NCBI RefSeq assembly: GCF_000003815.2
Contig: NC_049997.1
Span: 17,008,984 to 17,072,983 of the forward strand
Reading direction: 5' to 3'
Source: Branchiostoma floridae
Lineage: Eukaryota > Chordata > Leptocardii > Amphioxiformes > Branchiostomatidae
DNA: 64,000 nt
The position numbers and the translations under genes are program-made. Numbering within the stretch: position 1 is the stretch's first letter; every line of letters begins with the position of its first letter. Positions 111 to 63,688 of this stretch are shown here, one piece after another. Below the pieces are notes generated by a model that was given only the letters and a program-made list of their open reading frames with translations, was not told where the DNA came from and did not search any database.

Positions 111-2883
111 CTCCAGAACAAGTACGTCTGGTCTCCCTTCCTTAGAGGCTGCGTACATCTCAGACTCTTTAAACTGTAGTACAACATAGGTGCCGTCTGT
201 AGGTGGTATGCTTTTGTAGGAGTACATTTGTACGATCGCTGAAAGGGACGATGAAATACACGAAATGAGTGAATAAGTTCAAATTAAAGTAGAATTAAAA
301 CATAATGTCAGATTTTGGCCCTAAAATTGAATTTGTTCTCGAGAATCAAAGGGCTTTGCAAGAACAAAACTTTTATTTTAGGTGAATGACATGTACAACA
401 CTTTTTTTAGCATTATTTTGCATCATTATTTGCTATTTTTGATCTTTAGGAATTGTGCAAAAAACTGCACAATGTCCGCTAGTTTCTAATACCATTTCAA
501 AATAGACCCTCCTTGTGTAAACAGCAACATACTGTACACTGGTAGGTTTCTTGTGATCGACTTATTATGTAGGCACACTCCAGGCTCGCTAGATATGATA
601 GAAAAATACTACTTTCTATTGCGCAATGAATATTACACATCGTATCAAAAGCTGTGCATAGCTGTATAGGAGATAACATTTCTTCAGACAGAAGAGGAAA
701 TATGTGCCTGTATCAGACTTGCCCTTACTTTCGTCCTTGTTCCTGGGCGTCACGTTTGGAGTCCGGTACACCTTTTTCCCGGGTTCTCCATTATCCTTCA
801 AGTGTTGAATAAGGGTCCCTTTGTATGTTCCGTACTGGTTATTTATCTGTGATACTGCAGTACTGTCAAACTGAATCGTCTGAAAATTGAAAGGGTTATA
901 TCATCAGAACAAGACCAAAAGATCACATTTCCTAATCATCTCATCATATCACTTCATGCAATACACTAATCCGTCAAATCCAAATGGCGCCACCCTTCCC
1001 GTCATACACCGCAAACAAAATGGCAGCGCCCAAACTGCCAACAAAAACAGTACAGGTTTAGCTGCGCAAACCTGTAACTGTAACTGGAACTGGCTATTGT
1101 TGACGTGATGAGTCGAGTTTGACAGGGGATGTGACTACATTAAGGCAAACTGTTAGCTTCAAATGATACACTTCAATAGGAATCTATCTACACTTTGAAG
1201 TAGTTCTTTATCTGATTTTCTTCTTTGCTATCAAAATGTATCGCCTGAAAAGAAAAACTATTTATAAAATTAGAGTTCTGCGACCTCATACCTCCATGAA
1301 GTAGGATAAATGCAAATGATATACCCACTTGGATAATTTATGCATGGTGATGTTCACCTTCAACAAACATATGTCAAAAGTACAAAGTTCCCATCATTTA
1401 TCATGAAGCGTTTTTAACATTTTTTTTTATTAATCATGCAAATGAGTTCCTTATTTGTATGTTTGCTATCTGTTTATTTTCTACCTGTCATGATTTGAAT
1501 GTGTCACATATATTGATGTACAGTTACGGAAAACATTATCATACAATTCCCTCATTTCTTATGCAAATCAAGTCCTCATTTGCATAACATGAAAATTATT
1601 GTGTGCATATTTGCCTGAGCTACCTGCATGCTTTCTTCGGTTATACTCTTTGGAATCTTTTGACTAGAATGTCCCTGAAGCTCCAAATTCAATTTTTACG
1701 TCTTTGCAATTGACTAGGCTACCTGCATACCACAAAATCATAAAAATCCGTTATTCCTTTCTTAGGTAGTCAAGCTCGACCAATATCCGATGATGGATGT
1801 ACTTTACATGCTGTCTCATCTTTTGACACAGGCTTACAGCTTCAAGTAATGGACTAACACGAACTCAATCCACACTGAACTATGAACTTAAGGAATTACA
1901 GAGTTAATAACAACTATATGCCCGTGGGCTAAAGATAAGATCTATACATGCAGTGCAGGCCACGTGTCTTGCACTCAAAGTTTTGTTCGCTCGCACGCAC
2001 ACAAACACACACACACAAACACATAGAGTGGGTTCACACGTGCGTATATATCTAAAGCTAAGGGCACAACCCGCCGTACGTGCTGTCCGTACGTTTTTTT
2101 GGGGGGGGGAGGCCTTGTCCGCTACGTATTTCTGAAAGCGTTCAGGCTGACAGGGCAGGCGCGTTGCCCGTACTGGCACGCACGGGGGGCGAATCCGCAG
2201 CCCGATGGCACACAAAGTTTTGCCTGTACGTAAAGTTATACGGTGAATCCTGGTGCTCCAAATTCCGTCGAGTTCGCACGGAGGCGGTACTAACCACTTA
2301 CGGATCCCAAAAGATTGCCCACGTTTTAACACGTAGACAGCACGTATTTGCGCGTACGGCGGGTTGTGCCCTCAGCTTAAATCCGTGTGAGGTCTGTCTC
2401 GAATTCGTAATCTTTACCAGGCTCCACAGGTGGCTGGGAAATAGTAGCAATTGTACAAATTTAGACAGATAGCATGCCAGAGGAGTTAGCTGGCCGAGGA
2501 GCATGATTTGGGACCCAACTTAAATCGTCTGGCGCGTTGTCTGTCTATATATAACGTTAGCTATATTTGTCCAGTTTCTACTATTTTTTCAGCGACCTGT
2601 GGAGCCTTGTACGGGCTAAGTATTCCATGGTGGCTTCATACTTAGTACTTTAATATATACACACGTGTGAACTCACCCAAAGACTCACACTCACGCCTCA
2701 CACACACTAACACTAACACTCGCCTGTGCACTCACACACACACACACGCACGTACACAAACAGATCTAGACATACACACACAAACACACACAAACACACA
2801 CACACACACACACAAATCAAACATGTCGACAAGCGACCAGGTCATATGAAACTTACTTTTTGCTCCTCGCCCCCTGCTGCCAT
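111..2883 (-). CDS. IL-1-like beta-trefoil family, copy A (partial, exons 1-3)
   Basis: This is the leftmost copy of a four-gene tandem family; exons 4-5 lie beyond the left edge. Exon 1 is 2883-2857 (MAAGGEEQK, donor GTAAGT, phase 0). Exon 2 is 879-729 (50 codons, starts TIQFD, phase 1 donor GTAAGG). Exon 3 is 238-111 (42 codons, contains GTYVVLQF and ends VLVLE, phase 0 donor GTGAGC). Exon 2 has NGEPGKKVYRT, shared with the other copies as NG-P-----RT. Exon 1 was chosen because its phase, its place beside the intron-1 CA repeat and the TATA-like sequence upstream all match the paralogues. It lacks the Met-Gly-Asn start of C and D, so exon 1 is the least certain part. There is no signal peptide. 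Function is inferred only: an IL-1-like cytokine fold, see the copy B entry. Confidence 0.62.
1985..2023. repeat. (CA)n-rich microsatellite, copy A intron 1
   Basis: A short run of CACA and CACAAA units. It abuts the inverted-repeat element starting near 2031. Confidence 0.8.
2031..2393. mobile_element. MITE-like element with about 60-bp terminal inverted repeats
   Basis: The left end (ggttcacacg, then aagggcacaacccgccgtac) is the reverse complement of the right end (gtacggcgggttgtgccctc, then cgtgtgag). The interior has no convincing coding sequence. It sits in intron 1 of copy A. Confidence 0.7.
2680..2816. repeat. (CA)n microsatellite beside exon 1 of copy A
   Basis: A long alternating CA tract broken by CTCA and CAAA variants. 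It lies just inside intron 1, 40 bp from the exon 1 donor. Copies B, C and D have equivalent tracts at the same relative place. Confidence 0.9.
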
Positions 2884-2990
2884 GTTCAATGTAGGTTGTG
2901 CTGCACAACTGATAGTCCACGTCAGTTCAGGCCAAAAGTCAGTACAGAAATGTGCGACCAAGACCCCCACACCCTTTACACATCACTCCC

Positions 2991-2998
2991 TTTACATA
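2991..2998 (-). promoter_or_regulatory. TATA-like box of copy A
   Basis: On the minus strand the sequence TATGTAAAGGGAGTGAT aligns with TATATAAAGGAAGTGAT upstream of copy D. It lies about 110 bp upstream of the proposed ATG at 2883, the same distance as in copies C and D. It is a weaker match to the TATA consensus than in the paralogues. Confidence 0.4.
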
Positions 2999-3069
2999 CC
3001 AAAGGGATGATGGCAATGATGCCTGCGGCCAAGTAGCATCAACTTGTAGCACCGCCCCTCGACCTGGTC

Positions 3070-3235
3070 TTGTGTGTGTGTTTATGTGTGCGTGTGTATA
3101 TTTAAATTATGTGTGTATGTATGCGTCTATGTACGGTTGTGTGTGTGTCTGTGTCTGCGTGTGTCTGTGTCTGTCCGTCTGTGTTTGTGTGTGTGTGTTC
3201 GTGTGTGTGTGGGGGGGGGGTGGATTTGTACGTGT
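3070..3235. repeat. (GT)n-rich microsatellite upstream of copy A
   Basis: GT, GTCT and GTAT units end in a G-run near 3211-3220. Open frames across it are low-complexity artefacts. Confidence 0.9.
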
Positions 3236-3334
3236 GTGTATGTAGTTGATATGCATTATTTTTGTGTTGTTGTGTCATAACATGAATGAACACTATCTAT
3301 CAGTATAGAAATATTATCTACATGTTTGGTAAGG

Positions 3335-3530
3335 TAGGCACATAGCCTTTTCAAGGCCGTAGGAGCAGTGGGTTGTTATCCATTGTGTCTAGGGCAGGGC
3401 ATTAGAGGACAGAGCCCAACCCTCCAACCACCTTTAATCTTCCCAACTTAAGTTGGGTAGCGTTACCAATTACCCCTGGTTATTTTTACACCTGGATGGA
3501 GAGAAGAAGTGTCTTTCCTAAAGGCAAAAG
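3335..3530. repeat. SINE-like fragment (body only)
   Basis: Shares the blocks gttgttatcc, gtgtctaggg, agcccaaccctcc and tttacacctgg with the fuller SINE at 34,385-34,627. The tRNA-like head is missing here. Confidence 0.55.
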
Positions 3531-3979
3531 ATCGGTAACATATTGAGTTACTGATGTAAAAGTTTAATTGCAATTTTTACTATCTCTTCATGTGACTTTT
3601 GTGTTTTGTAAGTTGTATCTTTCTACCCTGTTGTAGATCTGTGTCAGTTTCTACCGTCCTAGGTTCTCGAGTCTACAGTATTGTTCCTCAGATATGTGTG
3701 CTCAACTTCTCATGATCTCTACATTGTTACACGCTCCTCCACAGCGTCGAAATAAATTGTCTTATTCCACTGAATATTCGTGTGTGACTCTTTTATGCAA
3801 TACACTACATGGTACATCTTGTTTTTTTTTTCACCCATCTTGTTTTTTTTCGTAGGTTATATTCGCAAAGACAGCCCTGGGACAGAGAACGTATTTTTGT
3901 GCGCGAAGCATGCTGGGAGGTCTAGTGTCCTGGATACGTGACTTGTTGTGTGGATCGAAGGTGTGCTCAACTGTGATTA

Positions 3980-4514
3980 GGCCACAGCAAGTAAATTTTA
4001 TGGATGACATCAGCGCGCGCATTAATTTTCGCCTGATTTCAGAATAAAAAACAAGATTTTTTTTCTTCTGCAGGTTGGTCAACATGACGATAAAGTACCA
4101 AAATGAGGAAATATATTGTGTTGTAGATATANNNNNNNNNNNNNNNNNNNNNNNNNNNNNNNNNNNNNNNNNNNNNNNNNNNNNNNNNNNNNNNNNNNNN
4201 NNNNNNNNNNNNNNNNNNNNNNNNNNNNNNNNNNNNNNNNNNNNNNNNNNNNNNNNNNNNNNNNNNNNNNNACACTAGTGTCACTTTAACCACACCAGTA
4301 CATGTCTTACATACAGGAATGAATGCCTTGTTGGCTCTGATACCATGATTTGTCCCTTTAATTCTTTTTACAACAGTTATCACAACTTTATGGTGCCTAT
4401 TTTTGAAAATGTAGCCATCTTGTTTTTTTTCACCCATCTTGTTTTTTTTCGCCCTATCGCACTATTTTTGCAGTCCGCAGAGGATGTCATCCATAAAATT
4501 TACTTGCCGTGGCC
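3980..4514. mobile_element. TTA-flanked MITE, family 1 (contains gap)
   Basis: The ends are ggccacagcaagtaaatttt and its near-perfect reverse complement ending aaatttacttgccgtggcc. Both continue inward with tggatgacatc/gatgtcatcca. Both ends are flanked by TTA (3977-3979 and 4515-4517), which looks like a target-site duplication. The interior includes the N gap. The same ends recur at 33,910, 49,022 and 50,725. Confidence 0.85.
4132..4271. other. Assembly gap (140 N)
   Basis: A run of N inside the family 1 MITE. The true length is unknown. Confidence 0.99.
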
Positions 4515-6147
4515 TTAACAAGACTTGTGATGATTGGGCGATGGGGAGGGGGGCTGTCTAAATGTTTTACAGACAGGTGTGTTTGTTTGTGTGCGTGCTA
4601 CAGATGAATAAACTCTATTCTTCGACAGTTGTACACAGTACAATGTATTAGCAACCATGACAAAGTAACCAATACATTAATACTAGTCTATTCTAAAGTC
4701 TACAGGAATGTGAACGTAAATGGTGTTTTGACATTATGTAATTTCAGTCCGTTACAGTCTCTCTTTTTTCAAGGCTCTTGTATTGGCCTAAGTACGCACG
4801 ATGGATAACAAGTCTGACACTGAACCTGCCCTGAAGTTCCAAAACAAGCCGCTAGGGGGCCCAAACCTGTCTACCACTACCACTCAAAAATCATAGCCGC
4901 AGCATGTTCAGAACTCCAGATATCCAACCCGGAAGTTCCACTGCAGTACCATAACAACCGCTAGGAGGCCCAAGATCTAATCGTTTTCAGGTCTTATCAA
5001 GACCTACACACACACACCAAATAGCAATACAATTCATGCAGGCGCTCTTGAGTTATGGTGGTCTTCTACAAACAGGCACACATACACACAAACGCTTCTT
5101 GGTGAAGGTAACTAGCGAACCGCAACAAAACGCGAGTGTACTGTATAAAGTCATACCAAGGACATAATATATTCTCAACCAGACTACCCTTTGTATAATA
5201 GCTAGTAGTAGCAGTCAGACAGCTACGTGACTACTGGAGGCACAATTTATCCAAGTCAGTGGTCTAGAAACTGAGTCATTAGAAAGTATACTAATGGTAT
5301 TCAACATATTCCCACTACCTAGGGTGTGAATGTGATTTTTATGTGAACTTAACGGAGAAACATCTAGAAATGCTTCAAGATGTGACTGCAGTGAAAATAT
5401 ATGTGAAAGGGACAAATTACAATGTTAGAGAAATGTGAAGCATAGAATGTGATGCAGATAAACATCCAACCTCAATCTGAACTTTTGCCCTTTCCCTATT
5501 TGCTCATTGTATAATTGTCTGCGACAACGTCCACCTTTCTGTCATTTAAACATTTCCCTCCAATATTTGGTACTATTTTGCAATTATGTGTTATTCACAT
5601 TTCATAATTTCACGAAACATTCCATATCATCCCTTTCGCATAAGTAAAATTTTGTTACATTGCTAAAAGTTGTTACCCCATATCAAATTCACATAAAGGT
5701 CACATTTACGCCCATGGCAGTGTTCACAGACTTTTAGCAGCGCTGGCTTTTTTTAGGGGGGAGGGGGGTGCTCTGATTTGCGATTTTCAGCATGAGGTAA
5801 ATTTCTGCAGTCCCTCTGGTTCTCTAATGCTCCCATTGTTGAAAATACCCATGTTGAAAATTTCAGATCTGCCCTACCAGCCCCCCTCCCCAATACGAAT
5901 TAGCTAGCGCCCCTGAAAGTCTGAGGAGGAAGCTACGACAGAAGTCTATCGGGGATCCTAACCATATTGACGTGGAAGAGAAATAACACAAGAACTTATT
6001 ATTTATTGCAAGAGTTGATAACACCAACGAATCACCTAGATTCAAAAGTTAACGTTGTTCAGTATAGAGTATGTGCTGAAACCTCTTCCCACCAATGTTC
6101 AACCATGTCCATACTGGCTCTACGTTTGTTTGTGCCATGCTTCGGTG

Positions 6148-6247
6148 NNNNNNNNNNNNNNNNNNNNNNNNNNNNNNNNNNNNNNNNNNNNNNNNNNNNN
6201 NNNNNNNNNNNNNNNNNNNNNNNNNNNNNNNNNNNNNNNNNNNNNNN
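6148..6247. other. Assembly gap (100 N)
   Basis: A run of exactly 100 N, probably a placeholder length. Confidence 0.99.
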
Positions 6248-6779
6248 TGATAGCACATGAAAGGGGGTTGTCACAGTTTGTGATTTTACACGATGTAGGG
6301 TAAATGTGCTCAACATAGAATGAATGTTACCAGAATGATTTCCGTAATTTCATTGCGAACTTGCAATCTTAGACAAGTAAAGAAACAAGAGTTAGGAGAC
6401 CTTATACCTTCATGAGATATCTTGATGGCGGAAATGACCTGGGCACTTACATGATCTCTACATTGTTATGTACATCTTAACTAACTTTGACATGTCACAA
6501 GTATGAAATTACTATGATTCTTCACTTTGATGAATTACGGAACATTTGCATTAATAATGCACATTAAGCCCAAATGTGCTTAATTAGTATATGTTAAAGT
6601 CCCAGATGTTATAAGTTAGATAATTATGTTACATGCACATGTACTCATGTGCCATTAATATTCTATTATGGAAAATGACGTCGACATTTTATTCGTTAAG
6701 CTGTACTTCCGGGATTTGGAGCTATTTCCGGAGACCGTGGATTGTTGAATTCCGCGGCGCGGAATTCATCGCTATACCG

Positions 6780-7630
6780 ATGAAATCCGCGCCACTTCGG
6801 TCGCTAATACTAGCGACTGGTCGCGGACTTCATCACGCTAGACTGATGAAACCCGCGCCACTTCGGCCACTAATACTAGCGACTGGTCGCGGACTTCATC
6901 ACGCTATACCGATGAAACCCGCGCCACTTCGGTCACTAATACTAGCGACTGGTCGCGGACTTCATCACGCTATACCGATGAAATCCGCGCCACCTCGGCC
7001 GCTATTACTAGCGTTTGGTCGCGGACTTCATCACGCTAGACTGATGAAACCCGCACCACTTCGGCCACTAATACTAGCGACTGGTCGCGGACTTCATCAC
7101 GCTAGCGTGATGAAACCCGCGCCACTTCGGTCACTAATACTAGCGTCTGGTCGCGGACTTCATCACGCTATACCGATGAAACCCGCGCCACTTCGGTCAC
7201 TAATACTAGCGACTGGTCGCGGACTTCATCACGCTATACCGATGAAATCCGCGCCACCTCGGCCGCTATTACTAGCGTTTGGTCGCGGACTTCATCACGC
7301 TAGACTGATGAAACCCGCGCCACTTCGGCCACTAATACTAGCGTCTGGTCGCGGACTTCATCACGCTAGACTGATGAAACCCGCGCCACTTCGGCCACTA
7401 ATACTAGCGACTGGTCGCGGACTTCATCACGCTAGCGTGATGAAACCCGCGCCACTTCGGTCACTAATACTAGCGTCTGGTCGCGGACTTCATCACGCTA
7501 TACCGATGAAATCCGCGTCACTTCGGCCGCTATTACTAGCGTTTGGTCGCGGACTTCATCACGCTAGACTGATGAAACCCGCGCCACTTCAGCCACTAAT
7601 ACTAGCGTCTGGTCGCGGACTTCATCACGC
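6780..7630. repeat. 66-bp tandem array, 13 units (left arm)
   Basis: Each unit runs from ATGAAA(T/C)CCGCG to CACGCTAT. It is an imperfect dyad: GATGAAATCCGCG near one end pairs with CGCGGACTTCATC near the other. In one frame all 13 units are open and give a 22-residue repeat (MKPAPLRPLILATGRGLHHA plus two residues). That is automatic for a stop-free 66-bp unit. The array is preceded by gagaccgtggattgttgaat and an EcoRI/SacII-like palindrome. The same flank occurs, inverted, at the right array. Confidence 0.93.
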
Positions 7631-7971
7631 TGTGTGACGGGCATATTTTTAAGAAAATACTTTCACGTTTCTATAGTAGGTTTTATATTTATTGCAGAAT
7701 ATAAGGTAGTATGTCTTCTTAGCATTAACGAATATTTTGTTTACCTCATACCAGGTGATAACGGTTTTTTAGTTCTTCATTAACTAGCTCTACCGGAGTT
7801 TCAAAATATTGCAAAGAGTAGAGTAAGTTAGAGCCTGTAGTTATCAATATTTATTCAGGTCAATGAAAATAATTTCACCACACTTCGACTTATCAACAAG
7901 TTGATAAATCGATCAGACACTGTTGATACGCATGTCTAAAAAACAAAATAATTGCACTACATTATCTTTGA

Positions 7972-12142: not shown

Positions 12143-12700
12143 TCGACCAAACGCTAGTATCAGCGACCGAAGTGACGCGGGTTTCATCGGTCTTGCGTGA
12201 TGAAGTCCGCGACCAGTCGCTAGTATTAGTGACCGAAGTGGCGCGGGTTTCATCAGTCTAGCGTGATGAAGTCCGCGACCAGACGCTAGTATTAGTGACC
12301 GAAGTGGCGCGGGTTTCATCTGTCAAGCGTGATGAAGTCCGCGACCAGACGCTAGTATTAGTGACCGAAGTGGCGCGGGTTTCATCACGCTAGTATTAGC
12401 GACCGAAGTGGCGCGGATTTCATCGGTATAGCGTGATGAAGTCCGCGACCAAACGCTAGTATTAGCGGCCGAAGTGGCGCGGATTTCATCGGTATAGCGT
12501 GATGAAGTCCGCGACCAAACGCTAGTATTAGCGACCGAAGTGGCGCGGATTTCATCGGTATAGCGTGATGAAGTCCGCGACCAAACGCTAGTATTAGCGA
12601 CCGAAGTGGCGCGGATTTCATCGGTATAGCGTGATGAAGTCCGCGACCAAACGCTAGTATTAGCGACCGAAGTGGCGCGGATTTCATCGGTATAGCGATG
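12143..12700. repeat. 66-bp tandem array, about 8 units (right arm, inverted)
   Basis: Same unit as 6780-7630 but on the opposite strand. It overlaps the end of the copy C last exon: the reading frame enters the array and stops there. Confidence 0.93.
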
Positions 12701-15700
12701 AATTCCGCGGCGCGGAATTCAACAATCCACGGTCTCCGGATATACCTGGGATTTGACATTCGTCAGTTGCAGTCTGTTCACCAGCGCCTCCTGGCGGCAC
12801 TGATGGGAAATTGATCTCGTCCGCAGAAAGCACTTTAAACAGCTGTGCATCCATTGATGTTCCATTTCCTACGAAAAGAATTAAAACCAATATGAATTTT
12901 GTGGCGCATCTTTTGTAAATCATTAGAGGGGTTATGGAAAACCAAAGGGACCAGTGATGCTGTCAATAATTTGCTCCATATCAAGTCGTAAAGGCAGGCG
13001 ACAGCGTTTTTTACATTTCAATGAGAAATTTAAAAATTAGTTACTTTTGGTTCAAGTTACTCTAGTTACTCTAGTTACTTTTGGTTTAAGTAAGGACATA
13101 ACACAAGCGCACATTGTTAATTAATTAGCCGGTAGGTTTGCATGTACGCTAGCCTGGAGTCCAGATAACCACAACCAGGCCTTCCTACGGGGTGCGGGGA
13201 TGGTAGAATTCGGCACAAAAGAGGTCATGTGCCAAATGTGGCAGTGCAACGCGCCGAAAGGATTCAGCGTGTAGTGCGGTGTGTCTGGCAACCATGCTAC
13301 ATACTCGTATACACGCAATGCTTCACCAAAAGTGAAACACAAAACCTTTAGAAGTGCCTGTAGTAGCTTCGTTCCTGAGTTCAGTGCCCTTCTCTTTGTC
13401 CTCAAACACGGTGATAACGCGAGAGGATCCGAGCTTCTGTGAGGCAAACACAGACTGATACCGCATGTCGGACGAATTCTGATGTGGTTTCTGCAGGAAC
13501 ACTCGTGGATCGTCAGTTGCCGTGATTTTTTGTGCATCTTTCGGTTTAAACTTTTTCGGTTTCTGCAGCTGTCGGCAAAATCATAAACACGTCAGGGAAC
13601 ATGCTGCATTTAGGTGGTTTGTCTTTGGTTTTTGTAAACACTTGAAACCTCACGAAAAGTATATATGAATTTTAAATATCAACATTTATCTATTTATTTA
13701 GTATACGTTTCTTTGAAATGGGTCAACAGTCTGGACAAAAAAAAAACGCCTGCTTTAATTTGTGAAAGGAGTGAAGGCCTCAGATACCAAGGCACATTAA
13801 CCTTATCTTACTTGGGACGGGGGCAGTGCGCCGACTTTCGACGAACTTTGACCCGGTGCTGACGTCACATGTGCTAAAAAAACATGCCTGTTTACAGCAC
13901 TCGGTAGAATGGTAAAAAATTGCGATGAGTGAAATTTGTGTTTTTCCGCAATGCAATAAACAAACTCTGCTGAATTTTCATGCTAATGTATTTTTATCAG
14001 TTTATTGCCGAGTTTCATATTTGTCTCTATCTGTTGTAACTCACCCGCAGTTTTTTAGTTTTCTTGGTAGCTAAGTACATTCCGGACGACTTGAACTGCA
14101 GTACAACATAGGTGCCACCGCCTGCTGGTGGTATAGTGCTGTAGGAGTACACTGTCACTGTCGCTGAAAGGAACAATGAAATACAAGATTAAAATCGTTA
14201 CAGACATAATTTCTTGAATAAAGTCTTGACTTTTATTGTGTAAGAGAAACTCAGTGACCGGGCTTTTTGCGCATCCTGGAGGGGGGAGGGGGGGGATTTG
14301 GTGGTTGAGGCTCTACTCCTAGCTGTAACTACTTAATATTTACTCATGTTATGACCAACGAATTTTCACAGTATAGCTTAAGTGTAAACGTATAAGGACA
14401 ACTTTGGTTTGGCTATTACGTCATTATGACGTCATGTATGTGATTTTATTAGCTGAAACCATATAAACGAGTACCGCAAAACTCAAAAAGACTTTTGTTG
14501 CCAATGGCAACAGCGGCGTAAAAATGACATAGGAAGATGACACCATATATCAGTTGGAATCTGCCAACTCAGATGTAATTGATGTATAACTAGAGTTCCA
14601 TAAAACACATACCTTCGCCAACTAATCAACGCTTATTATGGGGAGTGCCTTTATCAAAGACTTTAAGGTCATGGACTATAAAAATACATCTCAAAACACA
14701 ACCTTCTTGGCAAAGTTAAAAATAGAATAATGGACATTGTCTGTCATTGTACTGTGTTAAAAAATCATGACCCCGCCACTTGACTTGTTAAAAAAAATAA
14801 ACACCAAACAGCTGTTGATCTGACCTACTATTCCCTGGAAAGGAGAGACAGTGTCCCTGAATAGAGGTCAATCCATTTAGATAGAAAAATTACCATTATC
14901 TATGTAAATGACTCCTTTATTTGCATAAAGAAGATATCATCATGTTAATCTTCATCTAAGGTACCTGTATCCCAAAAATTATAAATATCTACCAGTCCCC
15001 GCACGGTTATCCTCTTAAGTTATGAACAAAAAGTCCCACTGCAGTTGAAAACAAGCCACCAGAGGGCCCAAACTTGCACGACTTACTCCCTGCCCAAAAA
15101 CGTATCCACTACTAAAAAATCGTAAACCTGGCACTTGACGAAAATTTTACCACCAACTTTGAACCTCCGCTGCAGTACCGTAACTCGTCGCTAGGCCTAT
15201 TGTCGAATTCGACCCTCAATTTCTCAACCCCCACATTACTACCAAAACTCATGCAAAATGATCCACAGCGTCTCGAGTTATCTTGTTCGCAAACACAAAG
15301 GCAAACACCCTCGCCTCGCTGCAGCGCCGGCGGAAAGTGCCAGGTTAACCATTTTTGAACAGGACCTTTGTTTTTGTAACTGCTACTTGATTCAGCATGA
15401 TGACCTAAAAACTATGTCGTTAGAACCTGTTGTCAGTAACCCGATGCCATGGCAACACGAAAATTATGAACTTGCATGCATATCATGAAATTGTTGCCAA
15501 CCTGATTCTAGGAAAAGTCACCAACCTAGAAATCAGCACCACAACACATCGAGGACCAAAGGCACAAAACCAGAGAGTCCAGCTGCAGTACCAAGGTCAT
15601 CAACAGGAGCCCCGAAACCAGTCAACAACCCACGTGACAGAGATAATTATAAAAATCCATCTATCGGTTTTTCAGATATGTCCCTGGACACAAAAAAACA

Positions 15701-16634
15701 TGTTCTTGTGTGTCTTGGAATTGTACATTTTTCAATGAGACAATAGCAGTTGATCAACCACAGAAGGGTACTCACCTCAATTAGCTGTATCATAGGCAAT
15801 ACTCTCCAGTTTGACAAATTTATGTCAGAAAAGTGGCCACACAAAAACTGTGGGCGAAATTGTACATAACAGGGGACTGATTTCTTCCGACGGATATTGA
15901 AACGTGAGATTTTCCCTTACTTCTGTCGTTGCTTTGTTCTGTCAGGAACACCTGTCTTTTGGGGTCTCCATTTTCTTTGTATTTCTGCATAAGGGTACCA
16001 TTGTACGGTTGGTTCGGATTCTTTATCTGCCGTTCTTCTTTCTTATCAAACTGTAGCTGTACCGTCTGAAAAAAAAGATTGGAAAAGATTGATAATCAAA
16101 AGTTAACGGTACCTTGTAACAGCTATATAATTGACAGGATAGGGAGTAGGGTACAGCGGATGTAGCATAATATAAATAAGCTGTGGCATCACATAGAAAA
16201 GATCTGCTAGGACATTACAGGTGATTCATAAGTTTCCTGTCTTCTCAAGAAATAAGGTGCATGCAATTTGAAGACGACACACAGTAACGGTCAATGAGAG
16301 AGAAGGGAAAAAAACATGGGCTGCGACCTGAAATTTGTGGGTCAACTAGCTATGCCGAAACACACACAAACACACACACACACATTTCCACACATCCACC
16401 CACATACACGCAGACACAAACACACATACACACACGCGCGCGCAGACACAAACACACACACGCACACAAACACACACACACGCGCGCGCACGCACACACA
16501 AACAAACACGAGCACACACACAAGTACCCATGAACACACAAGCACACACTCAAAGACATAAAAGAGGCCAAGTAAAGTCAAGAGCCTCTTACCTCTGTTG
16601 ACTCTACGGCATAGTTGGAATAGCAATTCCCCAT
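12684..16634 (-). CDS. IL-1-like beta-trefoil family, copy C (five exons)
   Basis: Exons: 16634-16593 ([14 protein letters not shown], phase 0), 16065-15921 (48 codons, phase 1), 14163-14045 (39 codons, contains GTYVVLQF, phase 0), 13562-13346 (72 codons, contains RVFLQKP and VITVF, phase 1) and 12868-12684. About 237 residues, no signal peptide. The start MGNCYS fits an N-myristoylation motif with a nearby palmitoylatable Cys. Two oddities appear. The exon 4 donor is GTTTTG, a poor splice site, chosen because it keeps phase 1 as in B and D; read-through would stop ten codons later. The last exon, after [10 protein letters not shown], runs through the array flank and ends inside the 66-bp repeat, so its C-terminus has been replaced. 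It is likely expressed if the donor works. Family and role are inferred as for copy B. Confidence 0.68.
16360..16545. repeat. (CA)n microsatellite in copy C intron 1
   Basis: CA and CGCG-containing alternating purine-pyrimidine tract, 50 bp from the exon 1 donor. Low-complexity open frames on both strands come from this tract. Confidence 0.93.
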
Positions 16635-21219: not shown

Positions 21220-24200
21220 TCAGTCGTGAAGTTGTACTTCCTCGTCTGGGCATTCGTCAAAGTGTTCGGAACCGCTCTCGGTCGGAACGTTTTCAGTTTG
21301 AAACCGCTGTGATTCCAATATTGCCCGCTTTCCTGTGAAAAGATTAAAAACGAAAGCATAATTCAATTTGTCAAGCTCACAGTTGCTTTGGGCCAATCTC
21401 TATACCAATTCTTTCAGCAAATAAGGAATGCATGATATCTGTACCATAAAACAAGATTCTTTTTACAAACCTAACATGTTTGCTGATAATCAACTTTTAC
21501 TATTCATAACGTATCACATATATGATGGACAATCCCTTTCTTATTCACCGATCACTCACTCATCCTCTTGCACGTGGTGCATCACCGATCACACACATCA
21601 AACTTAACTGGTAGGTAGATACACCCGAACTCCTGATGTATTTAATTTGTGACAGGAACTACATGTATGTAGAAAATTATCTCTTTGTTCTGGAGCACTC
21701 ATTGTACAAATAGTAAACATCATACACGTAAAACAAAATATACACAAAAGAATGACTTTTTGAAATATCTAACGTAACCATCTAACTACGATGTTTTGGA
21801 AAGCTCTACGCTCGTGTACATGTTTTCAGATTAAGAGGAAGACGAAAACTTGTAGATAAGAGTAAGACACAGCATATTTTTCTTATTACCTTATGCTGCA
21901 TTTAGCAAATAATTGTCATCATTATACAATAATCCTCATTGTTTATCATTGCTTCTCATTGCTTAATGTCTCTTGCTATTTTTTTCTTTAAGATATTTTC
22001 GATGTTGTACACATGTATACACAGTACGGGGCCTCACAACTTCAACAGCGGCTATAAGTAAGATACTAATATTCAAGATTAGTACCTTCTATCGTCAGTC
22101 TAGCGGCCCTTTTGGTGTTCTTGAACAGGGTGATGACAAGTGCTTTGTCTTTCTGGCCTTGATTTTGCTTTGAGGCGACACACGAGGCGTACACGACGTC
22201 TGACGAACCAGGCTGACTCGGTTTCATCAGGAACACTCGCCGGTCGGCAGTTGTCGTGATGTCTTCGGCATCTTCCGGATCAAACTCTTCCGGATCCTGC
22301 ATGTACAACCAAAATAACAGACATGTAAGAGGGATGGGGCATGGTGAATCTAGGACATACTGTTTTTACTAGCATCCTCTTTGCACTTGAAAACTGATGT
22401 GAGCGTGCGAAAAAACAAACATTGTATCAAAAAAGGTTCTTCTTCTTGAACTCCGGGACCGAAACCCCCTTCCACCTTACTAATACCTATTTATATACAA
22501 AATGTATAGGCAGAAATTGTTTGCACCAAAATATCTTTGCGTTAATATAACGCAAACATTTCAAAGAGGTCATACTAAGAACTGTTTCACACCAGCCCAA
22601 CCAACTATTCTGTCCATATAATTAAGGACTCTAGTAGCACTTTTCATTGGTTATAGATATAGACCAAATTGCAAATACAATGGAGAACATACAGGTGATC
22701 TTGATAGATATTAATCTGTAACACAATGGTCAGTATGCTTTACTGTATTTGTAAGTTCACTTGCACCAAATATGAAATATTTTATGTGTACGGAGTAAAT
22801 TTGAGACATAGTCGACGACATAAAGTATCAACTTTTCGATATTTGTCAATTTGCAAATTCATATACGATTTGCAGTATTTTTTTTCGAAACGGATAAAAA
22901 TTGATGCATATAATAAAGTTTTCCTTAGCTTATTTGTTATCTCTTGAAAAAAATACGAGCTCCTCGAAAAAAGTACATGAAAATGTAAGTAACTGTCTAC
23001 TAGTTTATTAGTCTAACGAATCTGTTGCTGCTGCTCACCTCTAGAGTAAGCACACGCGGTTTTCCTTCCTTGCTGGCAACGTACATTTCAGAATCTTTAA
23101 ACTGCAGTACAACATAGGTGCCGTCCACTGGTGGTATACTGGTGTAGGGGTACATGTGCACGATCGCTGAAATGATGAATGGAAGATCATTTCATAATGA
23201 AGTAATGATCATGGTTAGTTAAATACAGTTGTCTAATATAACAAATGGATAATCATTCATATTCAAAAATTGAAGTTAAAACTTTACAATTCCATACTAT
23301 GATTTGTATCTTTGGCTGACGTGTGTTTGGGGGATCGGAACAATAATTGATACTGGTAAACAATCTACTGCTTGTTGTTTGGTGATGATTTTAAACTGAA
23401 GTCTGAGCTAGTGGTATCACGTCACAGTAGTGTCTAGTTTTCTAAATTATGTCACGGAAATTTCAACGCAAACATATTTTAGTACAAGAGTGTGAAAACT
23501 CAAACCTTCATGAAATATTTCGTTTTGTGATGGTCCGTATGGTTTGTTGTGGGGTTGATATGGTTTGACGTTTGGCAAAATTATTCTATCATTGTTCTTA
23601 TAACTATGGTAAACGGTGAGATCCAAACTTACACCTTTTTATGTGTTCATTTTATTTCCTATTGTTACACATGCAACTGGCACATATCCCTAAAGTGTAT
23701 ATAATGGTTCATTCCATACAGATGTGACAGGGATGGTCACAGTTACTCTAATATATTTTTTAAACAACCACAAGGCTGCAACAAGCTGATATATAACTTA
23801 CCCCCAAAACATAAAAAAACAGAATCAATACATGCATTTTTCATGCAGGTAATAAATGAAAATGCATGTGATAGCATAGCGACCCTTATTCTTCCAGGAG
23901 AAGTGAAAATTTCTGACACTTCCCTTTACCGTCGTCCTCAATCCCATTCGTCAAGTGTTCAGTCCGGAACACTCTTTCTCCGGGATCTCCGTTAGGCCAA
24001 TGCTGAAGAAGGACGGCGGGTACTGGTTCTTTATTAGTTGTTCTACTTTACCGTTGCTATCAAACTGTATGGCCTGTAAACGTGGGGAAAAGTTAGAGAG
24101 GATCTACATAAACGTACACATTTTATACGGCCTTCACACAGAAACCGACTCAGCAGGAACCAAGCAGAACCAGTCGGGGTAAATTATTTGCCAAATTTGT

Positions 24201-24663: not shown

Positions 24664-24716
<53 letters not shown>

Positions 24717-24877
24717 ACACACACACACACACACCACACACATACACACACAAACACACACGCCAAACAACCAAGCAAACTAGCGATCAAGACTATAAAG
24801 GCATTTACATGTGGCACCGATGCACCGACGACCTCTGTGTCTCCTCGTCCATGGCATGTTCGCAAGCAATTCCCCAT
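21220..24877 (-). pseudogene. IL-1-like beta-trefoil family, copy D (frameshift in exon 2)
   Basis: Exons: 24877-24809 (MGNCLRTCHG start, 23 codons, donor GTAAAT), 24073-23930, 23166-23039 (42 codons, ends VLTLE), 22296-22086 (70 codons, starts DPEEFDPEDAED, contains RVFLMKP) and 21332-21220 (ends in the acidic tail DECPDEEVQLHD, then stop). Splice phases match B and C. Exon 2 starts in frame (AIQFD...IKNQY), then shifts. The family-like continuation QHWPNGDPGERVFRTEH is in another frame, and the first frame meets a stop at its ACT TGA. Compared with copy A about 10 bases are missing at the shift. Either this copy is a recent pseudogene or the assembly has a local deletion. All other exons are intact and the C-terminal exon is clean, so decay is recent if real. 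Confidence 0.65.
24205..24766. repeat. (CA)n microsatellites in copy D intron 1
   Basis: Several long CA tracts with CACG and CACC interruptions, ending 40 bp from the exon 1 donor. All overlapping open frames are low-complexity. Confidence 0.93.
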
Positions 24878-24980: not shown

Positions 24981-25296
24981 CTGAGCTTAAAATAAAGCAA
25001 GTGGGAATGGCGCCAGTACACATTATATCTACCAACAGACCAGAACTGATCCGGAACGTCGCTGTAGAACGTTGTAAAATGACGTACCTCAAGGAAACAA
25101 GAGAATAGAATGCTCTTTGTCCGGCATACTACGTGACTGCTTGAGGCATACTTTGATTCGAGTCACTGATCTAGAATTTGAACAAACTTTGTCTCCAAGC
25201 AGATAGTACGGTGGCCTAAGCTACTAGCTAGTATCAAAAGCTTAGCAAGGAGTGAAGCCGACCTATATATATATGACCCACCTTCAAAATTTATAT

Positions 25297-25376
25297 TTGT
25301 GTGTGTGTCTGTGTGTGTTTGTGTGTGTGTCTGTGTGTGTGTGTGTGTGTATGTATGTGTGTATATGTGTGTGTCC
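25297..25376. repeat. (GT)n microsatellite
   Basis: GT and GTCT units upstream of copy D. Confidence 0.9.
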
Positions 25377-25412
25377 TGATTGGAACCTGATATCCCTACC
25401 TGTGCCAGAGGA

Positions 25413-25712
25413 ACTCTACTCTACTCTACTCTACTCTACTCTACTCTACTCTACTCTACTCTACTCTACTCTACTCTACTCTACTCTACTCTACTCTGCT
25501 CTACTCTTCTCTCTACTCTACTCTACTCTACTCTTCTCTACTCTCTACTCTACTCTACTCTTCTCTACTCTACTCTACTCTACTTTATTCTACTCTACTC
25601 TTCTCTACTCTCTACTCTCTACTCTACTCTACTCTACTCTTCTCTACTCTACTCTACTCTACTCTACTCTACTCTACTCTTCTCTTTTCTACTCTACTCT
25701 ACTCTTCTCTAA
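25413..25712. repeat. (CTCTA)n pentanucleotide satellite, about 300 bp
   Basis: About sixty units of CTCTA with CTCTT and CTCTCTA variants. Because 5 is not a multiple of 3, open frames reading YSTLL are artefacts. Confidence 0.97.
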
Positions 25713-25947
25713 TCTATTCATTTTCATGGTGGTGTATACATATATTTGTGAACGGTAAATACCAAACCGGTAAATACCAAAACTGCAGCCAAACAGTTGA
25801 TGTAATGTTTTCTGACAGCCTACCTTTTGTCCCATAGCGCGGATAGTAGCAGTCACTCCAAACCGCCTGAGGCATACTTTACCCGGAGTCACTGATCCAG
25901 AATGCGATACAAAACTGAGTCTTTGTGGTAAGGCACTTGTTCATTCT

Positions 25948-26250
25948 AAATGGATGACACCCACGAACGCATCAATTTTCGTCCTTTTGTAAAAGCGACT
26001 TTTCGATAATACTGTACATCGTGCAAAGCAGCTGCAAAATGACTGAAAAATACGCCATAAATTGCAACAAAGTATCGGAAGGATAGGAATGCCGTAGAAT
26101 GCAATAGTCAATCTAAAAGTGGAAAAGGTAAAAGAACAAAAATGAAACATCTATTGTTTGATTTAAGTTACTCTGTGTGTTGACTTATCTCGTAACTTTG
26201 TTGACCACTTAGATTTCAGGTTTCTAGGTTTTAGATTTCCGGTGGATGTC
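25948..26250. mobile_element. Degenerate family 1 MITE
   Basis: Left end atggatgacacccacgaacg, right end ggtggatgtca. The interior shares gtgcaaagcagctgcaaaat and tacgccataaattgcaac with 18,836-19,186. A further interior-only fragment lies at about 26,690-26,860. Confidence 0.5.
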
Positions 26251-27169
26251 AGGAGACAACGCTTTTACTACTTTTGGTCATAAATTTTTAATCCTAGCCA
26301 GATTTCCACTACATGTATTTACCTCGATGAACATGAAATGTCATGAAGGTTATATTTTCACTAGCGTTCGTCTGTGAACAAGATAACTCAAGAACGGCTG
26401 AATGGATTGGTTTCATACTTGATGTGCTGGCGGGGTGTGATAAAAGCTGGAAATGATTAGATTTTGGGCCCCCTAGTGGCTTCCCTTGATACGACAGTGT
26501 AGTCAGTTAAGACGGTACTGTAGCCATGGTACCAAAACAGACTTTTTTTATTATACACTCAGTTAATATGTGTGTTTAGTTGTACTGTAAGTAGCTGCTA
26601 TAACGTTACATGTAGACCTTACGAAAGTCGCTGTACTTTTGTCGTGTCTCAATAAAGAATTTGTTATCTGTTAATCGCACAAAGCAGAATGAGTAAACGT
26701 ATGTCATAAATTGTGTAATGATACCAGAATACGGATGCAGATGTCGTAGAATGCCGAAGTCAATTAAAAAAAGATCAAAGACGAAGATGTGAAAAAGCCA
26801 AAATATTTATTTCCGCCACACACTACTCTATGTGGGTTTTTTCACAATTGTTCAACCTTCCTGTTTACTAATAGGTTAATGAATAAAAGCAACCTTTTCC
26901 AAGCTTTGTTTGCACGTTTGCAATAGAAAAATCACCATGTTTTTTCTTAATCTCCGAACTGTTTGAAACAATAGCAAGTATGTTTCAAACTTTTCATCTG
27001 TCGAGACAATACATTGCATTGATCATAAATAAAGCATGCCCCTTGTTCTCAAAATTTGACGAAGTAGACGTTTAAAATTTTTTAAAGCAGGATCATTTTA
27101 GTCCTAAGTTATGTCATTACAACTTAGACATGCCTCATCCTATGAAAGTAACGATAGTCAATCGCGGAG

Positions 27170-30100
27170 CTATTCTTGCTGGTCTGGACATTGCTCCGAC
27201 TGTTCGTCAGCGCCTTCTTGCGGTTTGAATGGGAACGGCACAACCTCCAGATAATCGCCCGTCGTCTCACCCTCAGGCCTCCCCTTTGCACGACGCAGTA
27301 CCGGGAAGTCAAGTTGGTAGAGTTGTGATTCGACCGCTGTCTCGGTACCTGTAAAGAAAGAAAGAAGAAAAAATTATCAAATGATGTGCAAAGGAAATCA
27401 TTATAATTCAACGTTCGCGATTTCAAAACCTAGGCAGCTTAAATGTTGATGTCAGAGTCGCGTTGCACAGTCGGAGGTGGAAAAATCGGAATACGAGTTA
27501 AGTGCCTCATTAAATCATTTTTAAAACCCTCTTTTTCTCTATAATTTTGCACGGATCCTGGAGGCTTTTGAATTGGAAGGAATTCGAACAGGTTATATAT
27601 ATAAGGTATAATTATAAGCTTCCCCTGTTTGGTGAAAATTTGTTCAGTACAGCAGTGTAGTTAGCGTGAGGACAGAGTTGTTGGGTCCTGTGGACAAATG
27701 CAGTTTAAAACTTGGGGCAAAACCAAAAGTGAGGTTTGTTTCATATAGCGAGCTTTTGTCAGAATTTGAGCAGAATAACCCCTGTTTTCTTTTAAGTATG
27801 AAGCAAATCTATGTAAATTTCTGCTGGAGAAGAATTTCTAAGATTAAAACATGGGATAGCACTTCCCTGAGGCCTTGTTTCGCTGTATTCTAACATGCTT
27901 TCATATGCGCATGGCTGCAGTACCGTCAAGGATTACTAGTCGGCGCTTCAGTACCGCCGAGTTGCTAGATACGGAATTGCTACGTTCGACTCGTTAACCA
28001 CCAAAAGTCACTCCGAATGTTTAACTTCAGCACCAATATTGTAAACGATTCCAAAATATAAAAACATAACTTCCTGGAATAAGTAGTCCCCAATAACAAC
28101 ATAAAATTTTCACTAGAACAAATTTTGTCACCTGCTTGTGAACATTTTTTTCACCGACATAAATGACACTACATCACGAACCTGTCTGTATTTGCTGTTG
28201 CCGATACATATTTCTAGTTTCACCTCCTTCTATTCCCAGCTTCTAGTTTTAGCACCGATACTAGTAGTAATCAAATCAGTTAAATCACGATAATATAAGG
28301 TCTTTCACAGAGCTTACTACGCATGTGTGGGCGACGGGAATCCTGGGTAGTATGTCAAAGGTTAAGGCCCATCAAACGTAAACAGCCTCGGCTCGCCTTG
28401 TTATATTTCAGCCATACCATAGGTATGGTGAAATATATTGTATTCGTAATGTTTCTTTCTTTCTCCTGTCAAATCTTCGGAACACGGTATCTCCGTTGTT
28501 CCTGAACCGATTGACTTGAAATTTGACACAAGGGTAGAGTGGGCCAATACCCCCAGACGTTTTTTTTTCATTTTTTTCATATCTGCCTTTAAAATGATTT
28601 TATTAAGGTTTTTTGGTCATCTTAAGACCAAAACTGTATATTTGGGCCCCCTGTACCCTGGTATTATAACCGAATGAGCTGAAATTTGTCACAGATGTGC
28701 CTTGATAATTCCTCCATATAAATTCAATACCACTTTTGGTGTACAGTATAACGAAATGCTTATTTTTGCGATTTTTTGGTCATTTTTTTACCAAAAAAGG
28801 ACACTTTTGGCTCCTGTACCTTGGATTTAGATCCGGATGACCTGAAATTTAGTATAGGAGTGCCCTAGACATATGCGCACATGGATTCATTAACAGTTGA
28901 GGCATACAGTACAACAAAATGCTTAATTTTGCGATTATTTGGCCATTTTATGACCAAAAAGTACACTTTTGGCTCTTGTGCTCTGGTTTTAAAACCAAAT
29001 GACCTAAATTTTGGTAAAATGGTGCACTAGATATTTATTCAAATGACACATGTATAATTTTTGTCATAGACTACGTCAAAATGATAGATTTGGGGATTTT
29101 TTTGTCATTTTCCAATAGCCACAGGGGTCAATGACCTTAAGGTCGTTGACCCCAGCTGCAGATTGCACCTTCTGGCATATATGTCTACCTACCTACCTAC
29201 CTAGTTTAATCTAATTAGATAGGTAACCAATCACTTAGCCTGAATCTATATCCTAAAGAGGGGGGGGGGTGACAGCCAATCAGCGAGTCCGGTGTTATCT
29301 GGAAGAGTCCATTCTTACACGGAGGGGTTCATTTTTTTTTTAAATTCATCCTCGGACTGGTGAAGTCTTTCAGTGGGTGTATTTTTGGACAGGTCTATTT
29401 TGCAGTTTTACAGAAGGTGTGCTGGAAGAGTCTATTCTCGCACGGAGGGGGGATTTTTTTTAATTCATATTTTGGACTTTGGTGAGTTCTAGTTTGTCAA
29501 AGTCCTTCAGCAGGGTTATATTTGGACTGGTCTAATTTGCAATTTTAAATGGGTGTGCTGGAAGAGTCCATTCTTGCATGGAGGGGGGATTTTTTACAAA
29601 TCCATTGGCTTTTTTTAAAATCCATTTTTGGGACTTCAGTGATTATGTCAAAGTCCTATTTTAGCGGATGTATTTTTGGACTGCTCTACTTTACATGGAA
29701 GAGTCCATTTTTTGCACACGGAAGGTTTTTTTTTCAAATTCAGTTTGGACGGGTGATGATTCAAAATTCACTTTTTAGTGGAAGTGTTTTTAGACTGGTC
29801 TATTATACCTTTTCATGCACTGGGACCTTTTTTGCTAAATTCAATTTTGGATTTGGTTTCTTATTCAAAAGGCCAAGGTTTCAGTGGGAGTATTTCTGGA
29901 CTGGTCTATTGTGCAAATTCACATAGGGTGCACTGGAGTCCATTCTTGAACGGGGGAATTTTGTAAGATTCATTTTTGGGTTAAACCGTCATTAGTAAAA
30001 GTGATTTTTCAAATGGGTGATTTTGAAATAGTCTATTGTTGCATGGGGAGGGAGATGGCTGAAATATGCTGTATTTGCTCTCAAGCAAATGTCGGCCTTT

Positions 30101-32914
30101 CTAGTTTAGATTTGCGTAACAATCGACAATGTCCGGAACGTAATGGCACCAGCAAAATGGCGGGATGTTAACGTTCATGGGGCCTTTACCTTTGACATTT
30201 TACCCAGAATTCCTGCCCCCTGCACATGTGTAGCAAACTCTGCGAAATAGCCTATTACCACACCTTTGTCCTCCAGTTCAGCGACTCTTCGAATGTTCTG
30301 AAACACGGTGATCACGTGACGAAACGAGCCTCGCGAGGCGAACACGAGATCTCGCGAACCAAGCTGATTGGGCTTCATCAGGAACACTCGGCGGTCGGCA
30401 GTTGTCGTGATGTCTTCGGCATTTCCTGGATTCCAGCCTCGTTTCTGTCAGAAAAAAATGTAACAAACGTTTGATATGTGTTGATAAAGACCCTTTTTCC
30501 TAATTTCCAGGCAGATTTACCAGAGGCATAAAATATATGTTCTCCAAGCATAGGTTGGGTCGCGGAGATAGTAGTGGTAGGGATGTTTATTGGCTCGCTT
30601 CCCTCGGTAAAAATCCCGGCCACTACTATCTCCGCAAACCAAACCCTGCCTGGAGAATACATTTAACAAAGTATCAAAGCTGTCCACGGAGCATAGCAAA
30701 TGAGCGTCCGTTAGTTAATGAACTCACTCGTAAATCTACATGGAGATTACCCTTTTCCGTCGTTTAGTTCAATTTCCTTTTCGATTTGTGATCATCAACA
30801 TAATTGATTCTATGATTCAATCTCCACCAAGCCTTCGCATCCCTAGTCCGTGGTTGTGCAAATTTCTCAAAATATATGCTACCTTATTGGCCAGTAGATC
30901 GATTTAATCTATCCTCAGAAGGGTCCTTTTAAAACAAGTCTTACTCTATGATTGCCAACATCTCAGGCCCTATACATCAGGGCCCTCCAGCCATCACTGA
31001 ACAGAGACGGTGGGCGTTCTAAACTTCCTGACACGTTTGGCCAATTGCTGACGTCACATATCCACAGATCACGTGTTAATAAGATCACGTGTCTGTAACT
31101 CTCGCTAGTTTACGTTGTTAAGTGATTGGTCATCAGTATTGGTCCCGAAAAAGACAGTGGTCGCTGAAAATTTTATCCGTTCATACTTTTGTGTTGGCAT
31201 TGTACTATTACGCCTGGCAGATCATTCTCCCTATAGTTAATCTAAACTTTCTATGATTTCTTTCCTATATCTGTTTGTTCGTTCGTTTATTTTCAAAAGC
31301 CTGGGTGGCCTATTCAGTTTCGACAAACTGTTTTTCAATAGGGCCCAGTTACACATATACATACAAGGAAATAAAAAAAAAAAACATATTACAGAGAAAA
31401 TAAATAGAATATACACATCGGAACATTTAAGTACAAATGAGACATGAAAGTTGTGACTTACCCTCAGAATAAGCTTGCCTGGTTGATTTTTGTGGGCGGC
31501 GAAGTACTTTTCGGACTGTTGAAACTGCAGCACAACGTAGGTCCCGTCTACAGGCGACGCACACGTGTAGGTGTACACTAGTACAATCACTGGGAAAGGA
31601 GAAATGAAATGCAAGAATAGAAATTAATTCACAGTTCGTTAGCTAGCTCTTTTTCGGCTCAAATTGCTAAGCATATACAAATGGAACATCTATCTATAAG
31701 AATATGTACTCCTTGAAACGCCGCTCTGCATAGGTCAATTGAACTGCAGTTGGCTCATCCTGAGAGGAACTTGCGAAAGAAGCTTAAGTAAAGGTGGAAA
31801 ACACTCATAATCCAAATCATACAGTCTTAAAACTGACATGTTCCCACAGTGTACGCTTAGATATCTGCCACGTGCTATTTCTATCTTACTTCAAGAATTC
31901 AGTCTGGTGTCATAGTCCGCCAAATAAACAAACAAACCAGGTGGGTCGGGAAAAAAATAAACGCTTTCACAGAGGTTACCGCGCAGGCGCTGGTGAGAGG
32001 AACTCTGGGTATAATATGTCAATTTGAAAAGTTGAAGGCCCCAGAAAGCAGACATTCCGCTATATTCCAGGCGTCATTACGTTCCGAACATTGTTACAGA
32101 AATCAAAACAATGGTAAAGACTGTTTACGTCTGAGGGCATTCAACTTTCACATATTACCCAGAGTTCCTCTCACCCGCGCGTGCGTGGTAACCTCTGTGA
32201 AAGGGCTCATAATGCGCTCAGCTGCAAACTTACCTTTGTGCTTGTTTTCAGGCGTCACGTGTTCAGTCCGGACCACCTGTCCTGCGGCTCTTCCGTTCTG
32301 CCCCACTTTCTCAATAAGGAAACCCTCGTACCCAGGGAACGGGTTCTTTAACAGCCGTGTTTCTACCGTATCAAACTGAATCGTCTGAAAAAAAGAGGTA
32401 TAACGCTAGTTGACCTTTATCCGTGGGGTAACATAAATTCGCACACAAACACACACACAAGCATCACACACAGACACAGACACACACAGACACATGCACA
32501 CCATGCACACACATACACACACAAGCACACGCACGCACACACACATACACACACCCGCGCACACGCACACAAACGCGCGCACGCACGCACATTTCACTTC
32601 ATTCATTACGAAACCTTTTAGCCCAACTGGGCTAATATTCCAATGTTCACAACATTTCTAAACTACATGACGGGTTACATTTACATTTACATTTACACAC
32701 GCAAACACGCACACACACACACAAACATACACACACACACAGAAACAAACACAAAAACACAAAACAAGCACACATACTCAAACACACAAAGTCCTTCGCC
32801 TGATATTTGACGTTGCACGACACTTACTTGAGGAGTTGGGAGCGGTGATGACCCCCGGCTCCGCTCTCCGCCCTCTTCCACCATGTCCACACCGTGAGAA
32901 AGTTTGCTCCCCAT
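27170..32914 (-). CDS. IL-1-like beta-trefoil family, copy B (five exons, intact)
   Basis: Exons: 32914-32828 (29 codons, MGSKLSHGVDM start), 32384-32234 (50), 31589-31462 (42), 30444-30264 (60) and 27348-27170 (58 plus stop). The total is 241 residues, phases 0-1-0-1, all GT-AG. There is no signal peptide; MGSKLS fits an N-myristoylation motif. Strand-like blocks run [28 protein letters not shown], then RVFLMKP, LVFAS, HVITVFQN and ESQLYQLDF. This order matches the IL-1 C-terminal half, where the strand leading to T-L-Q-L-E ends an exon and R-F-V-F, F-E-S-A and F-T-M-Q-F follow. Known of that family: cytokines with a beta-trefoil fold, usually leaderless and released unconventionally. The role here is inference; FGF-like or other trefoils remain possible. 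Intron 4 carries a 2-kb element starting at the exon 4 donor, and the last exon is longer than in D. Confidence 0.72.
28290..30262. mobile_element. Inverted-repeat element with expanded tandem repeats inside, copy B intron 4
   Basis: About 100-bp ends are inverted copies. The left end has aaggtctttcacagagctta and gggaatcctgggtagtatgt. The right end, reverse-complemented, gives ttcgcagagtttgctacaca and ggaattctgggtaaaatgtc. It belongs to the same family as 31,965-32,202 and 56,245-56,473, which are only about 235 bp. The interior holds two tandem families: about 120-bp units with ggtcattttatgaccaaaa (28,480-29,150) and about 100-bp units with ggaagagtccattcttgcat (29,300-30,050). Confidence 0.75.
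30539..30660. mobile_element. 122-bp palindromic MITE, copy B intron 3
   Basis: The left arm contains gttctccaagca and gcggagatagtagtgg. The right arm is ccactactatctccgc, then ctgcctggagaata. Arms are long and the loop is short. Confidence 0.8.
31965..32202. mobile_element. MITE of the same family as 56,245-56,473, copy B intron 2
   Basis: The ends tttcacagaggttacc and ggtaacctctgtgaaa are inverted. The arms continue with gagaggaactctgggtata against acccagagttcctctc. The interior shares aaatcaaaacaatggt with the 56-kb copy. Confidence 0.85.
32440..32785. repeat. (CA)n microsatellites, copy B intron 1
   Basis: Two CA tracts (32,440-32,590 and 32,695-32,785) lie between exon 2 and exon 1, the same relative place as in the other copies. 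A half-copy of the 35,629 MITE end lies beside it near 32,407. Confidence 0.93.

Positions 32915-51662: not shown

Positions 51663-63688
<12,026 letters not shown>

Follow-up and report, generated by a model that had tools for sequence, protein, structure and literature searches.

Does the amphioxus genome hold relatives of the vertebrate IL-1 superfamily? The question is raised by a stretch of 64,000 nucleotides (the window, C19:17008984-17072983), in which an earlier note, made from the letters, had read a tandem family of leaderless, IL-1-like beta-trefoil proteins. That note took IL-1 ligands to be not established outside the vertebrates, and a 2022 review agrees: in an excerpt of it, the receptors of IL-1 predate the ligands, and no IL-1-like gene outside the vertebrates is known (PMC9020223). 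Within the open-licence literature, no amphioxus or other invertebrate IL-1-like family appeared in the titles or abstract openings among the matches listed.

The window holds four minus-strand copies (A, B, C and D) of one gene family. The four paralogues with a common exon set, as first proposed, are real, and their exon phases are constant. Judged by splice sites and by agreement among copies, the full gene would comprise five coding exons, e0 to e4 (Table 1), with the start codon in e0, the stop in e4, and phases of 0, 1, 0 and 1 at the ends of e0, e1, e2 and e3, respectively. Across the five inferred exons, copies D and B are open from ATG to stop and encode 241 and 235 amino acids; e2 is 128 nt long in A, C and D and 119 nt in B. 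Copy C, intact from e2 to e4, is probably a pseudogene because the frame of its e1 is broken and the donor of its e0-like stretch is poor. Since the end of e4 in copy B overlaps a minisatellite, the last residues of that copy may be a recent change. Of seven motif patterns from the earlier note, the family shows six, all on the minus strand; the seventh, K-Y-x-A-x-K, is absent (copy D reads KYFAAHK). The motif of the last strand, given there as ESQxFQ, varies across the family as [ED][SA]Qx[FY].

Table 1. Exons of the four window copies. Positions are those of the window; strand assignments in the protein are putative.
Feature	Position	Strand	Remark
Copy D e0, MGSKLSHGVDMVEEGGERSRGSSPLPTPQ	32828..32914	-	N-myristoylation-type start, donor gtaagt; similarity to copy F, no MG filter
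Copy D e1, putative strands 1-3	32234..32384	-	
Copy D e2, putative strands 4-7	31462..31589	-	128 nt, begins in phase 1 and ends in phase 0; exon 3 of human IL1RN is its counterpart in the alignment
Copy D e3, putative strands 8-11	30264..30444	-	
Copy D e4 and stop, putative strand 12 and C-terminal tail	27170..27348	-	
Copy B e0, 14 residues	16593..16634	-	scan requiring MG
Copy B e1	15921..16065	-	
Copy B e2	14045..14163	-	
Copy B e3	13346..13562	-	
Copy B e4 and stop	12684..12868	-	end overlapping minisatellite at 12387-12709
Copy C e0-like stretch, MGNCLRTCHGRGDTE	24833..24877	-	poor donor (gtcgtc)
Copy C e1	23921..24073	-	broken frame
Copy C e2	23039..23166	-	
Copy C e3	22086..22296	-	
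Copy C e4 and stop	21220..21332	-	
Copy A e1	729..879	-	
Copy A e2	111..238	-	e3 and e4 beyond the window edge (L019, L021)

Several other features lie around these exons. Two related 66-bp minisatellite arrays of opposite senses occupy 6758-7631 and 12144-12709, with a long open frame running through the first, and an ACTCT pentanucleotide array of 61 copies is found at 25413-25716. Upstream of e1 of copy A, a weak e1-like stub (FQAIHFDSKEENQIKNYF, minus strand, 1197-1250, E 0.02 to 0.2) is perhaps a decayed exon duplicate. Upstream of two copies there is a short, conserved, non-coding-looking exon with common splice sites (L017, 8595-8478; L018, 7213-7099), possibly a 5' UTR exon. ATTTA occurs 0 to 2 times in the 800 nt that follow the stop codons of copies B, C and D. 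Ig_NUP210 domains 2, 3 and 4 are encoded on the plus strand at 57470-57763, 59057-59347 and 61545-61802, which confirms the flanking NUP210 gene of the earlier reading. On the minus strand, at 35926-36969 and 37273-37572, a PEBP-domain frame whose N-terminal part is rich in Lys lies beside a PAN domain.

The tandem arrangement was borne out, and the array extends far beyond the window. In the 513 Mb genome (431 contigs) there are at least 17 distinct places for exon e3, 15 of them within 0.4 Mb of contig C19 and one each on C17 and C352. This count comes from an exon-profile search over fetched loci, in which 18 e3 rows were obtained at E<1e-5 with one place represented twice; it includes partial and broken places, and the profiles themselves derive from members of this family. 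With e3 as the query, 14 places were found at E<=0.1, of which C19 holds 12 and C17 and C352 one each. The e2 exon of copy D gave at least 12 places at E<=1e-3, 11 on C19 (16.64-17.04 Mb) and one on C17, a lower bound in that copy B was missed by this query. The e3 place on C352, a small contig, could be an unplaced duplicate. Outside the window, stops were seen in e1 of the L016 copy and in e3 of one L012 copy. Pairwise dN/dS was below 1 in all 78 pairs among 13 copies, a set that includes partial and probably dead ones, with point estimates ranging from 0.28 to 0.98; these values fit fast-evolving but constrained proteins.

The first exon, e0, encodes an N-myristoylation motif, MGxxxS, in six copies whose donors are clean, namely D, B, F, L, N and O. 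An initial scan compared candidate first exons between 10 copies with no motif required and yielded nine pairs, three of which have the start MG[SN][KR]xS in common (D-F, where F lies on C17, F-L and F-N). The other six pairs, B-C among them, were taken as repeats or left unassigned. A second scan, in which MG was required, added B, C, K and O, and further MG frames were set aside. Of the resulting eight candidates, the same six copies combine a gtaa donor with a fit to a PROSITE-type myristoylation pattern, which C and K do not. In the remaining copies e0 was not found by these scans. Judged by eye, e0 of the six is short and polar and is without a hydrophobic leader, so that the word leaderless fits the copies in which this exon was found. 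Because the MGxxxS start recurs in six copies with clean donors, the family members look like lipid-anchored, leaderless proteins, and we consider lipid modification of the protein likely.

The same features are the starting point of the main rival explanation, that these are myristoylated intracellular beta-trefoils resembling hisactophilin, which would switch between membrane and cytosol and bind cytoskeleton or lipid, with no secreted ligand. The likeness to IL-1 would then be one of fold only, or an old homology without the function. Hisactophilin is rich in histidine, whereas histidine makes up only 0 to 2.3% of the 13 family rows; a His-rich trefoil with a myristoylated Gly was thus not found among them, the MG motif of the six copies notwithstanding. 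The MGxxxS start itself and the lack of an evident leader peptide in the family speak for this explanation, and hisactophilin is indeed a trefoil that is N-myristoylated and has a myristoyl switch (PMC3625163, in excerpt). With the introns described below, which point to the IL-1 lineage, also standing against it, we think the hisactophilin-like explanation unlikely.

Family libraries did not recognise the proteins. The Pfam IL1 profile (PF00340) matched 0/8 and 0/13 members, and its genome-wide search gave no matches, the control being equally silent. No trefoil was present among the PDB profile matches. A PROSITE-type IL-1 signature (F-x-S...T) was found in 0/13 family rows, and of the human members 4/9 pass and 5/9 fail; the form of the signature printed in PMC7144542, in the excerpt used, fits 0/9 human members. 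The only matches from the Pfam and NCBIfam scans were weak and were read as chance: DUF7022 in 1/8 members (E 0.0018; 18.9 bits, the cut-off being 27), YjzC in 1/13 (E 0.0009) and, each in a single member, Inhibitor_I42 (E 0.14 and 0.19), DUF4019 (E 0.16) and three NCBIfam models (E 0.08 to 0.12). Viral and prokaryote contigs were also searched for relatives, each set with a single peptide pattern; there were 2 matching stretches in the former and 10 in the latter, none of them confirmed. On the receptor side, five matches to the Pfam profile Ig_6 were seen, each of them below its cut-off. Two AlphaFold models, made from the four window sequences only, were unusable, with mean pLDDT of 33.4 and 37.5 and pTM of 0.28 and 0.37, so that the support asked for in the earlier note, a trefoil model with IL-1 or IL-18 as top structural neighbour, was not obtained. 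The silence of the libraries and of the PDB profiles on any trefoil, and the poor models, speak for a second rival explanation, in which the family would be a beta-rich immune or membrane protein specific to amphioxus and of some other fold, its strand order and introns resembling those of IL-1 by coincidence. This second rival is also improbable in our view, for reasons that lie in the intron positions.

The family was compared with the IL-1 superfamily by HHalign, using 13 copies against nine human members. The local score was 19.49 (E 0.027, probability 1.8%), a value reached by 0/150 column shuffles (best 19.48) and 3/120 block shuffles; the global score of the same alignment was reached by 1/120 block shuffles. 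In a revised alignment, with junction letters changed in two rows and e1 of copy C left out, the local score was 20.78 (E 0.017, probability 2.7%), which 0/100 column and 0/100 block shuffles reached, and the global score of 9.15 was reached by 2/100 block shuffles. A looser alignment of the family with IL-1 scored 17.95, with 1/100 shuffles higher. Along the global path, RRVFLMKP is aligned with KRFAFIRSD and DLVFAS falls on the TSFESA region, while VITVF, VAEL and ESQLYQL lie opposite FLCTA, PVSL and TKFYFQ, respectively. Confidence in the alignment is low outside e2, and e1 is poorly aligned. We regard the IL-1 profile score as borderline and suggestive only, and its borderline nature is a further point for a fold other than the trefoil. 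Internal repeats were not seen in HHalign self-comparisons of either the family or human IL-1.

The FGF family also belongs to the trefoil class, and a divergent FGF or lectin-type trefoil was considered as a third alternative. Such a protein would be possible as a general fold class and nothing more. Against an alignment of four FGF rows, the family scored 11.75, at the level of its shuffles (mean 11.88, top 20.96), and 11.91 with the revised rows, so that no profile similarity to FGF was apparent with this small alignment. An FGF or lectin profile match had been named in the earlier note as an outcome that would count against its reading; no such match was obtained in the Pfam scans of the members. 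This alternative is disfavoured, and we hold it to be very improbable.

The strongest evidence for a relationship with IL-1, in our estimation, is the intron match to human IL1RN. The positions of the IL1RN introns can be taken from the variants described in the excerpt of PMC11026629. A donor variant at c.318+2 places the donor of intron 3 at c.318, ie at codon 106 (mature E81) in phase 0. Skipping of exon 3 gives p.Glu69Glyfs, and intron 2 therefore lies in codon 69 (mature E44) in phase 1. Precursor numbers were taken as the mature number plus 25, in agreement with I40, Q54, E77 and Q119 of the same source. In the HHalign path, the phase-1 intron of the family (split codon V51) aligns to IL1RN K45, one residue from E44, and the phase-0 intron falls exactly after E81, with no residue of difference. 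Thus two of the three introns inside the domain match IL1RN introns 2 and 3 in both phase (1 and 0) and position, a feature of membership that was set post hoc. The alignment used letters only and was made without knowledge of the IL1RN intron positions, although the exon limits of IL-1beta were known beforehand. In 40 jackknife runs the position of the phase-0 intron was kept in 40 and that of the phase-1 intron in 39, and both positions hold in the alignment with revised junction letters.

When three introns were placed at random, both matches in phase arose in 0.03% of trials within one residue and in 0.16% within three; the first figure (about 3 in 10,000) belongs to a post hoc criterion and a simple null model. 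A coincidence at this level, in a stable alignment, argues against a protein of another fold. Some other IL-1 genes agree, as far as the excerpts of their sources go. IL-36Ra has the same phase, c.115 being phase 1 in codon 39 (PMC5376573); IL-1beta has intron phases of 2,0,1,1,0, the last two being 1 and 0, and its last three exons carry all 12 strands (PMC4880838); and exons 4 to 6 of IL-37 are predicted to encode the trefoil (PMC10623001). The correspondence is not complete. A third IL1RN intron, near codon 40 in the excerpt of PMC11026629, is without a family counterpart at that place; the family intron before e1 is phase 0, where IL-1beta has a phase-1 intron ahead of its trefoil exons (PMC4880838, in excerpt); and the e3|e4 intron is extra.

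The IL-1-like reading with which we began is partly supported: the order of the putative strands agrees with the IL-1 family, as do two introns inside the domain, but no profile library recognises IL-1 in these proteins. With no library match and a match in introns, gene structure makes it probable that the family belongs to the IL-1 superfamily, which the fold does not yet prove. Homology to that superfamily and a trefoil fold, taken jointly, would seem rather more probable than the contrary, judged from the letters. As the best explanation overall we lean, by no great measure, towards a myristoylated, leaderless danger signal of the IL-1 superfamily. The family would share an ancestor with the vertebrate superfamily and would have expanded in its own lineage, and its exons e1 to e4 would together encode a putative 12-strand beta-trefoil. 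The protein, which has no evident signal peptide, would be synthesised in the cytosol, and N-myristoylation at Gly2 would hold it at the inner face of the membrane, perhaps aided in some copies, such as B, by palmitoylation at a nearby Cys. Release would most likely occur by membrane damage or through gasdermin-type pores, and the released trefoil would bind an Ig-TIR receptor as a danger signal. An amphioxus gasdermin has already been characterised (PMC10155998, in excerpt), and invertebrates are reported to have IL-1R-like genes that encode Ig and signalling domains, according to the excerpt of PMC9020223. We put forward release and receptor signalling tentatively. The widest form of the proposal, that the IL-1 superfamily predates the vertebrates and that the cephalochordate array consists of true IL-1 relatives serving as N-myristoylated, membrane-tethered danger signals, is a possibility that we hold to be less likely than not.

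If the relationship with IL-1 is true, the origin of the ligands moves back before the vertebrates, and the old invertebrate IL-1 receptors gain a candidate partner. Leaderless cytokines would also be linked to lipid anchoring, which could be an ancestral or alternative way of keeping such a cytokine inside the cell until damage occurs. The hypothesis is directly testable in amphioxus, an animal with a characterised gasdermin (PMC10155998, in excerpt).

Compared to known systems, the amphioxus family is like the FGF family in its presumptive trefoil class, and its profile score against FGF is not above shuffles. With hisactophilin of Dictyostelium it would have in common a small, N-myristoylated trefoil, if both the trefoil and the lipid are right; the amphioxus proteins are not His-rich and their introns are IL-1-like. 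The likeness to the vertebrate IL-1 superfamily (IL-1beta, IL-1Ra, IL-36Ra, IL-18 and IL-33) extends to the putative strand order, the lack of an evident signal peptide (IL-1Ra excepted, PMC10623001, in excerpt), the phase 1 and phase 0 introns at two IL1RN places, a domain laid out over the last exons, and the tandem cluster. The amphioxus family differs in having no detectable IL-1 profile or signature and in its start, which is of the MG type where the IL-1 proteins have a long prodomain. It also has an additional phase-1 intron ahead of the last strand and a C-terminal tail, and a single genome holds at least 17 places for exon 3.
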